Program-made: the position numbers and the translations under genes | The notes under the pieces: model-generated | The model's database searches: none | What the model saw: the letters and a program-made list of their open reading frames with translations, nothing else | Told to the model about the DNA's origin: nothing | NCBI GenBank assembly: GCA_947499735.1 | Contig: CANMPP010000001.1 | Coordinates: 1,054,001-1,118,000 of the forward strand | Length of the DNA: 64,000 nucleotides | DNA from: an uncultured Pelagimonas sp. | GTDB lineage: Bacteria; Pseudomonadota; Alphaproteobacteria; Rhodobacterales; Rhodobacteraceae | Direction of reading: 5' to 3' | In this document: one piece after another, positions 37,432-63,180 of the stretch | Layout of the letters: each line of letters opens with the position of its first letter | How positions within the stretch are numbered: position 1 is the stretch's first letter

Positions 37432-37461
37432 ACACCCCCGTATATGCGGGGGTGTTTTTTT
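37432..37461 (+). terminator. Rho-independent terminator after icd
   Basis: ACACCCCCG-TATAT-GCGGGGGTGT followed by seven T. Confidence 0.93.
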
Positions 37462-37462
37462 A

Positions 37463-37493
37463 TGGAAATACTATTTCCAAATTTCTGGAAATA
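37463..37493. promoter_or_regulatory. Operator upstream of arsC, shared with the aquaglyceroporin gene
   Basis: Two overlapping dyads: TGGAAATA-C-TATTTCCA (37463-37479, perfect) and TATTTCC-AAATTTCT-GGAAATA (37472-37493). The second is nearly identical to TATTTCC-GGTTTTCT-GGAAATA at 62431-62452. It ends 4 bp before a TTGCCC/TATTTG promoter (37498-37526, 17-nt spacer). An arsenic-responsive regulator such as ArsR is the obvious candidate. Confidence 0.6.
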
Positions 37494-37669
37494 TAACTTG
37501 CCCCACATCTATATTTCTCTTATTTGGGAAATACGGAACAATAGCGCGCTGAGGCTTCCATTGGTTTTCATCTTATGTTTCCCGAGGTCTCATTTATGGT
37601 CGCGGGTCACAGTAACCGCCAACGCCTTGTTCCTTTCCTCAACTGACCTGATCTGATGGAGAGCCATAA

Positions 37670-38167
37670 ATGGCCGACACAAAATACGCAGCATTGTTTG
37701 TTTGCTCTGGAAACTCAGCCCGTTCTCTTTTTGCAGAGGCCATTCTACGCAAACTCGGTGGCGATGCGTTTGACGTTTATTCTGCGGGAACAAATCCACA
37801 TGGATCCCCTAATCCGCATGCTTTGGCACTTATGCAGCAAAAAGGGCACGATGTATCACAGCTGCGTTCAAAGGACATCGCGGAGTTTACAAGTGAAGGT
37901 GCGCCAAAGTTTGACTTCATATTCACCGTCTGTGACCAAGCGGCCAATGAAGAATGCCCAGCCTTTCCCGGCCAACCCATCACAGCCCATTGGGGCATGA
38001 AAGACCCTGTTAAGGTCGAGGGTGAAGAGGCCGAAAAAAGCCTTGCATTCCAAGAGGCTTATGGAATTTTATTCAATCGCCTCAGCTTGTTTACGGCATT
38101 ATCGATCGACGCGCTGGATGGCATGTCTCTACAGAAAGCGGTTGATAAAATCGCAACGCAAGCGTGA
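37670..38167 (+). CDS. arsC: Arsenate reductase, LMW-phosphatase (thioredoxin-coupled) type
   Basis: Reduces arsenate to arsenite through a Cys relay. It has 165 residues. The phosphatase loop is C12-S-G-N-S-A-R18-S19. The two further Cys expected in thioredoxin-coupled ArsC are present at C88 ('FTVCDQA') and C96 ('NEECPAFPG'). GGAGA precedes the ATG. No arsR or arsB is beside it; arsenite export may be through the aquaglyceroporin at 62.5 kb, which has the same operator. A hairpin follows the gene. Confidence 0.88.
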   Translation: MADTKYAALFVCSGNSARSLFAEAILRKLGGDAFDVYSAGTNPHGSPNPHALALMQQKGHDVSQLRSKDIAEFTSEGAPKFDFIFTVCDQAANEECPAFPGQPITAHWGMKDPVKVEGEEAEKSLAFQEAYGILFNRLSLFTALSIDALDGMSLQKAVDKIATQA

Positions 38168-61387: not shown

Positions 61388-62401
61388 ATGCAGCGAAACA
61401 CAGCAACCTATATGGCAGCAAATGGACGGCACGCAGACGCGCCGTGCCGATTTGTATTTTGTCTAGTACCCCAATTTAGCTTGGCCAGTTTTACCAATGC
61501 TATCGAAGTCCTCCGCCTGGCCAATCGCAGCGCAGGGCGTGAAATTTACACATGGGAAACATGTGTGGCTTTCGAGAACACTGAAGCAATCAGAAGCTCT
61601 TGTGGCTTGCTGGTCACCGTGGGTGGTTTTCAGCCAGAACTTACCCGCGATGATACATTGATCGTATGTGGTGGTGAAAACATCCGCCAAGCGATCAATA
61701 AACCAATGCTGAATTGGATTCGCCGGGAAGCCCGCCGTAACATCCAACTGGGCGCTTTATGCACAGGCGCGCATGTTTTGGCATTGGCCGGTTTGCTGGA
61801 CGGAAAGCGCGCCACGGTTCATTGGGAAAACCAAGATAGTTTCGAAGAAGAATTTCCCGACGTTGAACTGTCGCAATCGGTGTTTTGTATCGACGGCAAA
61901 CGCATCACAGCAGCTGGCGGTACCGCATCTATCGATTTGGTTTTGAAATTGGTCGCGACAGATCACGGCACCGATTTGGCAAATGAAGTTGCTGACCAGT
62001 TGATTTATACATCCATCCGAACCGACCGCGACACCCAACGCCTGTCCACCCCGACGCGCATTGGCGTTCGTCATCCCAAGCTGAGCCAAGTCATCAAAAT
62101 GATGGAGGCCAATTTGGAAGAGCCCATCAGCCCGAATGCCTTGGCGGACTATGTGGCGATGTCGACGCGGCAATTGGAACGGTTGTTCCGCCGTTACCTC
62201 GATCGTTCGCCAAAGCGCTATTATATGGAGCTGAGATTGCAAAAGGCCCGCAACCTTTTGCTGCAAACAGATATGAGCGTGATCAATGTCGCATTGGCCT
62301 GCGGGTTTTCATCCCCGTCGCATTTTTCGAAATGCTACCGCCAGCGTTATGACACCACCCCATATCGCGAACGCGGCGCGCATGCGGCTGCTCCGCATTA
62401 A
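61388..62401 (+). CDS. GlxA family AraC-type transcriptional regulator
   Basis: Regulator of 337 residues. The N-terminal DJ-1/PfpI-like domain (about 20-200) has 'FCLVPQFSLASFTNAIEVLRLANR' and the nucleophile-elbow 'LGALCTGAHVLALAGLLDGKRATVHW'. The C-terminal AraC double helix-turn-helix spans about 235-335 ('NALADYVAMSTRQLERLFRRYLDRSPKRYYMELRLQKARNLL', 'NVALACGFSSPSHFSKCYRQRYDTTP'). Relatives such as GbdR and CdhR control amine and betaine catabolism. Its target is unknown here. Confidence 0.9.
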   Translation: MQRNTATYMAANGRHADAPCRFVFCLVPQFSLASFTNAIEVLRLANRSAGREIYTWETCVAFENTEAIRSSCGLLVTVGGFQPELTRDDTLIVCGGENIRQAINKPMLNWIRREARRNIQLGALCTGAHVLALAGLLDGKRATVHWENQDSFEEEFPDVELSQSVFCIDGKRITAAGGTASIDLVLKLVATDHGTDLANEVADQLIYTSIRTDRDTQRLSTPTRIGVRHPKLSQVIKMMEANLEEPISPNALADYVAMSTRQLERLFRRYLDRSPKRYYMELRLQKARNLLLQTDMSVINVALACGFSSPSHFSKCYRQRYDTTPYRERGAHAAAPH

Positions 62402-62430: not shown

Positions 62431-62486
62431 TATTTCCGGTTTTCTGGAAATAAAAAGTTGACAGTTTTTTCCTCTCCGGTCACTAG
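62431..62486 (+). promoter_or_regulatory. Operator and promoter of the aquaglyceroporin gene
   Basis: The dyad TATTTCC-GGTTTTCT-GGAAATA (62431-62452) ends 5 bp before TTGACA (62458-62463), with a weak -10 (CACTAG) at 17-nt spacing. The dyad matches the one in front of arsC at 37472-37493, including its position relative to the -35. Confidence 0.6.
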
Positions 62487-62526: not shown

Positions 62527-63180
62527 ATGAAACGACAAATCGCAACTGAAGGCCTAGGTACCGCATTGCTTTTGATCGGTGTCGTCGGATCGGGGATCAT
62601 GGCTGAGACCCTAGCCGATGGGAATACAGCCCTGGCTTTGCTAGCAAACGCCGTTGCAACGGGCTGCATGCTGTTTGTGATCATCACGATTTTGGGTCGC
62701 CTGTCTGGCGCGCATTTCAATCCAATGGTGTCGTTGTTCTTTGCGTGGCGCGGCGAATTGGATAAATCCGCCCTGCCCGGCTATATCGGCGCACAGGTGA
62801 TCGGTGGTATTTTGGGCGTGTGGGCCTGCCATGTCATGTTTGATATGACCGTCTTGCAGTTTTCCACGACCGTGCGCACCGGAACAGCGCAATGGTTTTC
62901 CGAAATCATCGCCAGCTTTGGCCTGCTTTTTGTGATTTTGGGTGGCTTGCGGGCACGTGCAGATTTGGTCCCGATGCTGGTGGCCATGTATATCACAGGC
63001 GCCTACTGGTTTACGTCCTCCACGAGCTTTGCCAATCCGGCCGTAACCATTGCGCGCATGTTTTCAGATTCCTTCGCAGGGATCCGTCCGATGGACGCGC
63101 CAGGCTTTATCGTTGCGCAAATCGTCGCTCTTATCATAGCAATTGCGGTTTTACCTTGGCTCTTGGAAAAAGAAGACTAA
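62527..63180 (+). CDS. MIP family channel, arsenic-type aquaglyceroporin
   Basis: Membrane channel of 217 residues with six helices and two half-helices. The pore motifs are NPM (N65-P66-M67 in 'GAHFNPMVSL') and NPA (N170-P171-A172 in 'SFANPAVTIARMF'), a change from the usual NPA/NPA. Similar proteins (AqpS) export arsenite from alphaproteobacteria that use ArsC to reduce arsenate. An operator shared with arsC supports that role here. The ATG has AGGAG upstream. Confidence 0.85.
   Translation: MKRQIATEGLGTALLLIGVVGSGIMAETLADGNTALALLANAVATGCMLFVIITILGRLSGAHFNPMVSLFFAWRGELDKSALPGYIGAQVIGGILGVWACHVMFDMTVLQFSTTVRTGTAQWFSEIIASFGLLFVILGGLRARADLVPMLVAMYITGAYWFTSSTSFANPAVTIARMFSDSFAGIRPMDAPGFIVAQIVALIIAIAVLPWLLEKED

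Follow-up and report, generated by a model that had tools for sequence, protein, structure and literature searches.

Why should one and the same inverted repeat stand in front of an arsenate reductase gene (arsC) and, far away on the same DNA, in front of a channel gene of the MIP family (mip)? The question is raised by a stretch of 64,000 nucleotides from the genome of an uncultured Pelagimonas sp. (hereafter the window), whose initial annotation took TATTTCC-N8-GGAAATA to be common to the two upstream regions and proposed a regulon for arsenate reduction and arsenite exit. The exact dyad does occur at two places in the genome, these being the two in the window (Table 1), where about 0.01 would be expected (0.009-0.011, from Markov models of orders 0 to 2 trained on about 107 kb of its sequence). 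Both spacers fit NNNTTTCT and are identical at five of eight positions. The control region of arsC, which begins directly after the terminator-like hairpin of the isocitrate dehydrogenase gene, also contains the second perfect dyad, GGAAATA-C-TATTTCC, that had been described as overlapping the first (O1), together with an additional one-mismatch dyad (O2) absent from the earlier description.

Table 1. Positions of the candidate control elements and neighbouring genes, numbered from the first letter of the window
Feature	Position	Strand	Basis or remark
Terminator-like hairpin of isocitrate dehydrogenase gene	37432-37455	+	terminator scan
Extra half-site GGAAATA; forms perfect dyad 37464-37478 with left arm of O1	37464-37470	+	direct reading
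Candidate operator O1 of arsC, exact TATTTCC-N8-GGAAATA, TATTTCCAAATTTCTGGAAATA	37472-37493	+	one of the genome's two exact places
Candidate operator O2 of arsC, 1 mismatch, 40 bp from O1, across likely -10 region	37512-37533	+	
arsC, Trx-type arsenate reductase, LMWPc family; cysteines at residues 12, 88, 96	37670-38167	+	Pfam LMWPc
Candidate operator of MIP gene, exact TATTTCC-N8-GGAAATA, TATTTCCGGTTTTCTGGAAATA	62431-62452	+	one of the genome's two exact places
TTGACA, -35-like (mip), 5 bp past dyad	62458-62463	+	by eye; not in promoter scan
MIP channel gene, aquaglyceroporin-like, NPM and NPA motifs	62527-63180	+	Pfam MIP above cut-off

The arsC product carries CX5R plus two more cysteines, and its best NCBIfam match is the Trx-type ArsC model TIGR02691, at 87.5 bits under a cut-off of 174.3. 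NCBIfam MIP and aquaporin models likewise match the channel protein below cut-off. Its first channel motif is NPM; among 16 relatives read, this motif is NPA in 15 and NPL in one. Ars genes (arsC, ArsR or arsH) lie within about 1.5 kb in 10 of 17 MIP relatives, and within the window genome the shared operator is the sole link of the channel gene to arsenic. As a MIP protein linked to ars genes, the channel can be regarded as a candidate arsenite channel of the AqpS type. Upstream of mip and on the same strand is a GbdR-like AraC-type regulator gene (61388-62401; 360.3 bits, cut-off 480), which ends 125 bp before it.

All 3,774,859 bases of the genome were scanned for the dyad, with the reversed pattern as a control. 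Four places have at most one mismatch, compared with one for the control, and 19 have at most two, the same number as for the control; only near-perfect sites are therefore informative. Chance places are common even at one mismatch: of 16 loci with at-most-one-mismatch places, from a scan that took in relatives, tblastn recognised an ars gene at 6 and none at the other 10. Outside the window, a single place has one mismatch (G000:C1:715495-715516); 22 bp separate its end from the ATG of a gene in which an ArsR domain is fused to an arsenate reductase. Refinement of the pattern, in which the spacer TTC was included and up to three mismatches were allowed, yielded 9 forward hits and 10 reverse ones, which amount to 15 distinct places; the control gave 3 and 2 hits. 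Six of these are arsenic-linked, at five loci: the two arsC sites, mip, the fusion gene, a Grx-type arsC followed by arsH, and an ArsR gene linked to an ArsP_1 permease gene. The place at the Grx-type arsC (TIGR00014, 118.8 bits, cut-off 106.05; arsH, TIGR02690, 394.5 bits, cut-off 292.25) has two mismatches and lies 31 bp upstream. The suggestion that a genome scan might turn up further ars genes has thus proved fruitful, in that the next-best dyads precede the fusion and this arsC-arsH operon. The ArsP_1 permease gene and its own ArsR are found on another contig (G000:C3, about 274-275 kb; L119 132-1509). There, a weaker related dyad with three mismatches lies across the start of the ArsR gene, whose protein ends, on direct reading, in CC-x6-C.

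No ars gene was recognised at the other nine refined-pattern places, eight of which were judged by eye from reading frames; the ninth (G000:C1:1089698, window 35698) falls inside an MFS gene of the window. Nor were phosphate genes recognised beside the places inspected, as judged from the reading frames viewed. Acr3 was not found in the genome, and the search for ArsB gave one distant ArsB-like transporter (C2:305768), which scores below every NCBIfam cut-off, falls well short of those for ArsB, is most like MamN and has no refined-pattern place; we rejected it as a member of the regulon. An Rfam search found no RNA element in the four control regions. Its sole match is a TPP riboswitch (RF00059, 70.3 bits) past the fusion gene at L003 (2416-2516), with a thiD-like frame, recognised by eye, downstream of it.

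The fusion gene (G000:C1:715539-716372) is 376 kb from the window arsC and encodes a protein of 278 residues. An N-terminal ArsR-type helix-turn-helix (Pfam HTH_20, 32 bits, cut-off 27) is followed in the same frame by an LMWPc domain (low-molecular-weight phosphatase/ArsC; 58.3 bits, cut-off 23.2) with the reductase cysteine triad C123/C198/C206, as befits a true fusion. Matches to NCBIfam models are lower: 50.4 bits for HTH_metalloreg, just under the cut-off of 55, and 67.7 bits for TIGR02691, below 174.3. An AlphaFold2 model built with 19 sequences (mean pLDDT 86.9, pTM 0.75) finds its best solved matches among Trx-type arsenate reductases (8p5n, E 2.2e-11), and the best for the ArsR half is the arsenite-responsive ArsR 6j05 (E 1.3e-6, TM-score 0.82 by target length). 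This fold match and HTH_20 together identify the ArsR half as an ArsR/SmtB winged helix-turn-helix. The CC of a relative aligns with the CC of 6j05. The fusion of the window genome forms a long branch and retains C-D-C as the remains of the cysteine triad; the complete three-cysteine arsenite site of type 2 was not found in its ArsR half, which has C88 and C90 only. At the closest fusion relative (L024, G020:C22:117452-117522; 55% identity) there are two dyads 49 bp apart, a pair that resembles the one at arsC.

To place these sites in a wider context, we surveyed a sample of 394 genomes of the family, with neighbours identified by tblastn. The exact dyad occurs at 18 places in 17 genomes (reversed control, 2). 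Fifteen are directly upstream of a fusion gene, two are those of arsC and mip in the window, and one is unrelated. A second pattern, derived from fusion promoters, gave 64 places in 64 genomes (control, 1), of which 49 adjoin a fusion and 13 a separate ArsR; one lies at an arsC followed by a fusion, and one has nothing related beside it. Automatic sorting had left eight of the 64 unassigned; seven were sorted by hand (two fusions, four separate ArsR genes and the arsC before a fusion), and the eighth is the unrelated one. Two stray sites of the family scans, at L205 and L286, lie inside open frames. Seen from the genes, 72 of 95 full-length fusions have a dyad with at most three mismatches between -75 and +25, and 85 have one with at most four. 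When the 12 fusions picked by motif are set aside, 60 of 83 have a dyad with at most three; among random 100-base stretches (n = 1779), 0.1% reach three mismatches and 1.7% reach four. The first 23 fusion loci, that of the window genome included, comprise 17 with at most three mismatches, four with four, and two without any site within four. Candidatus Contendobacter, which we take to belong to the Gammaproteobacteria, also has fusion genes at two loci (L197 and L198), accompanied by an exact dyad and a one-mismatch dyad.

At three loci of relatives (L146, Leisingera aquaemixtae; L168; L214), a second arsC and mip are adjacent to the fusion, which is preceded by a dyad. These arrangements and the genome scan support the proposal that arsenate reduction and a channel share an operator in an arsenic regulon. 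A dyad with at most three mismatches was found neither within 250 bp upstream of 17 MIP relatives, nor anywhere in eight MIP loci that were rescanned whole, nor close upstream at seven unfused arsC-type loci; several of these genes, though, occupy the second place in an operon. The scattered arrangement is consequently an observation on one genome, and the relatives searched all lie outside the window's genus.

The shared sites, the fusion gene and the gene neighbourhoods in relatives are apparent from the sequence itself. Fusion, arsC and mip share one contig (positions of about 716, 1092 and 1117 kb) and have a dyad each, and the likely operator recurs at the arsC-arsH operon, so that these genes probably form one scattered arsenic-detoxification circuit. 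In our reading, the dyads are probably operators of an ArsR-type repressor, for which the fusion is the best candidate, and the arsenic circuit would be dispersed over four loci. The fusion comes first among candidate regulators because outside this genome the exact arms precede 15 fusions and no separate ArsR. The same arsenic regulon could instead be read by the ArsP-linked ArsR, which would bind the window sites either by itself or jointly with the fusion. This protein carries a complete triad and has a related dyad across its own start, and a separate ArsR stands at 13 of the 64 fusion-derived places, 10 of them with arsP as at G000:C3. The details of the sites point both ways. Position 15, a T in both window sites, is T in 13 of 13 separate-ArsR sites versus 1 of 49 fusion sites, whereas the C at position 7, again present in both, is found in 17 of 49 fusion sites and in none of the 13 separate-ArsR sites. 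The window sites thus mix features of the two classes. However, none of the 18 exact-arm places in the 394 genomes is beside a separate ArsR, and arsC and mip adjoin the fusion at L146, L168 and L214, not arsR-arsP. We therefore consider a role for the ArsP-linked ArsR at these sites unlikely, though worth bearing in mind, and retain the fusion as the most likely regulator.

How the dyads might act is a separate matter. The initial annotation placed them 4-5 bp before -35 boxes and hinted at an activator, or a regulator acting both ways, bound just upstream of -35. Hexamers resembling -35 elements are indeed present at these distances, TTGCCC (37498-37503) being 4 bp past O1, but they are boxes recognised by eye with which the promoter scan disagrees: it proposes TGGAAA-18-TATATT (37486-37515) for arsC and found no promoter at mip. 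The sole dyad of mip directly precedes TTGACA, a point in favour of such a regulator. Against it, O2 lies across the likely -10 region of arsC, and most related fusion genes have their dyad in a position typical of a repressor: among the 85 that carry a site, 75 have their first ATG 21 bases past the start of the dyad, whose final A in GAAATA is the A of the ATG (GAAATATG). To our knowledge, a binding site just ahead of the -35 element does not set activators apart among ArsR proteins, the footprint of R773 ArsR being reportedly of this kind. ArsR proteins are described as repressors (PMC6205960, PMC11868830). Activation or two-way control from upstream of -35 is consequently very improbable, and this part of the earlier interpretation is not supported. 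Least probable of all is purely local control, in which the mip dyad would belong to the GbdR-like gene that ends shortly before it on the same strand and its likeness to the arsC site would be due to chance, a possibility that we dismiss since the site is shared, exact dyads are expected about 0.01 times per genome, the same dyad marks ars genes throughout the family, and 10 of 17 MIP relatives lie near ars genes.

A repressor could exert its effect by covering the core promoter. Among the 85 fusion genes, 11 have a TTGAC that starts 13-15 bases upstream of the dyad, a spacing at which the -10 element would fall inside the dyad and transcription would start near the ATG; repression through the core promoter is thereby suggested. 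Where the dyad ends on the start codon, the messages may be leaderless. The fusion gene of the window genome differs in this respect, its dyad ending upstream of the ATG as noted above. When arsenic is low, a repressor dimer would occupy the fusion's own promoter and those of arsC (at two sites), mip and the Grx-type arsC-arsH operon, and would block transcription. Intracellular arsenic would then release the repressor, ArsC would reduce arsenate, and arsenite would flow out of the cell down its gradient by way of the MIP channel, in the manner of the Sinorhizobium AqpS pathway. Here we infer binding, repression, arsenic as the signal and arsenite as the substrate of the channel. The channel is a plausible exit since Acr3 is absent from the genome.

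What the fusion might sense was approached with an alignment of fusions 240 residues or longer (96 rows), from which one duplicate (L199 of L034) was dropped for the tree and the dyad count; most of the shorter loci left out were separate ArsR genes that tblastn had joined. Where the ArsR domain ends, CC is accompanied by a third cysteine in 65 rows and stands alone in 6; the remaining 25, one of which is the fusion of the window genome (C88-D-C90), lack it. The three reductase cysteines are intact in every one of these 25, and in 92 of the 96 overall. Twenty-one of the 25 form one clade (support 100/99; for example L042, L049, L156, L164 and L204) that includes Rhodobacter capsulatus and Tistrella mobilis, and in 15 members of this clade the ArsR half is devoid of cysteine. 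The tree requires at least four changes of the no-CC label, and the loss was thus not a single event. Dyads are present throughout this clade (21 of 21 with at most four mismatches, 18 of 21 with at most three; 7 of the 21 were picked by motif). The clade combines an ArsR half without an obvious arsenite site with a candidate operator. Because the cysteine pair is lost while the operator and the reductase triad are kept, it is conceivable, though we would not count on it, that in part of the fusion family the sensor has moved from the ArsR half to the reductase half, and that the repressor reads arsenate or its own catalytic state, not arsenite; the C-D-C fusion of the window genome would then represent a separate step. 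Elsewhere, ArsR proteins with two cysteines are reported to answer methylarsenite and not arsenite (PMC11868830, PMC4287715), and a Thermus ArsR/SmtB repressor with one of three such cysteines was modelled as arsenate-responsive (PMC5658604).

Several components of this arrangement have precedents. ArsR-ArsC fusions are in print for Leptospirillum ferriphilum, Microbacterium, Sinorhizobium and actinobacterial clusters (PMC6205960, PMC6514093), and a review leaves their functionality open (PMC6205960). These proteins likewise unite an ArsR half and a Trx-type ArsC half in a single chain, but the present family adds a conserved operator and, in the window genome, likely trans targets at the unlinked arsC, mip and arsC-arsH. 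AfArsR, which binds arsenite through Cys95, Cys96 and Cys102 (PMC11868830), represents the type 2 repressors to which 6j05, the best solved match of the fusion's ArsR half, belongs. Most fusions share with them the CC and a third cysteine, in contrast to the C-D-C of the window fusion and the 21-row clade without CC. In the AqpS-ArsC pathway of Sinorhizobium meliloti, an arsenate reductase and a MIP channel that replaces an arsenite pump operate together (PMC6205960). The window genome similarly has an arsenate reductase, a MIP channel and no Acr3, whereas its genes are scattered and share operators, its channel carries NPM, and transport by it is putative. Interspersed arsenic genes are known from Thermus thermophilus HB27, where one ArsR/SmtB is bound to three promoters (PMC5658604). 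Scattered genes under what is probably one repressor are the common trait; a separate ArsR/SmtB and an ATPase are used there, and a fusion, a channel and another operator here. An ArsR that reaches genes outside its own operon has also been described (PMC7965956). Fused ArsR-ArsC, exit of the AqpS type and control of dispersed arsenic genes by one ArsR are accordingly already known, each separately. A search of the literature at the level of titles and abstract openings, with subscription journals mostly outside its reach, returned no description of this operator or of a trans-acting fusion.

Our findings provide the ArsR-ArsC fusions with a precise candidate operator, one that is common in the family and is also present at the two Contendobacter loci. 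Since the predicted targets are unlinked within one genome, the trans function of such a fusion becomes accessible promoter by promoter. Finally, the clade without CC, in which an ArsR domain is joined to an intact arsenate reductase, bears on the question of whether an enzyme domain may serve as the sensor of a repressor.
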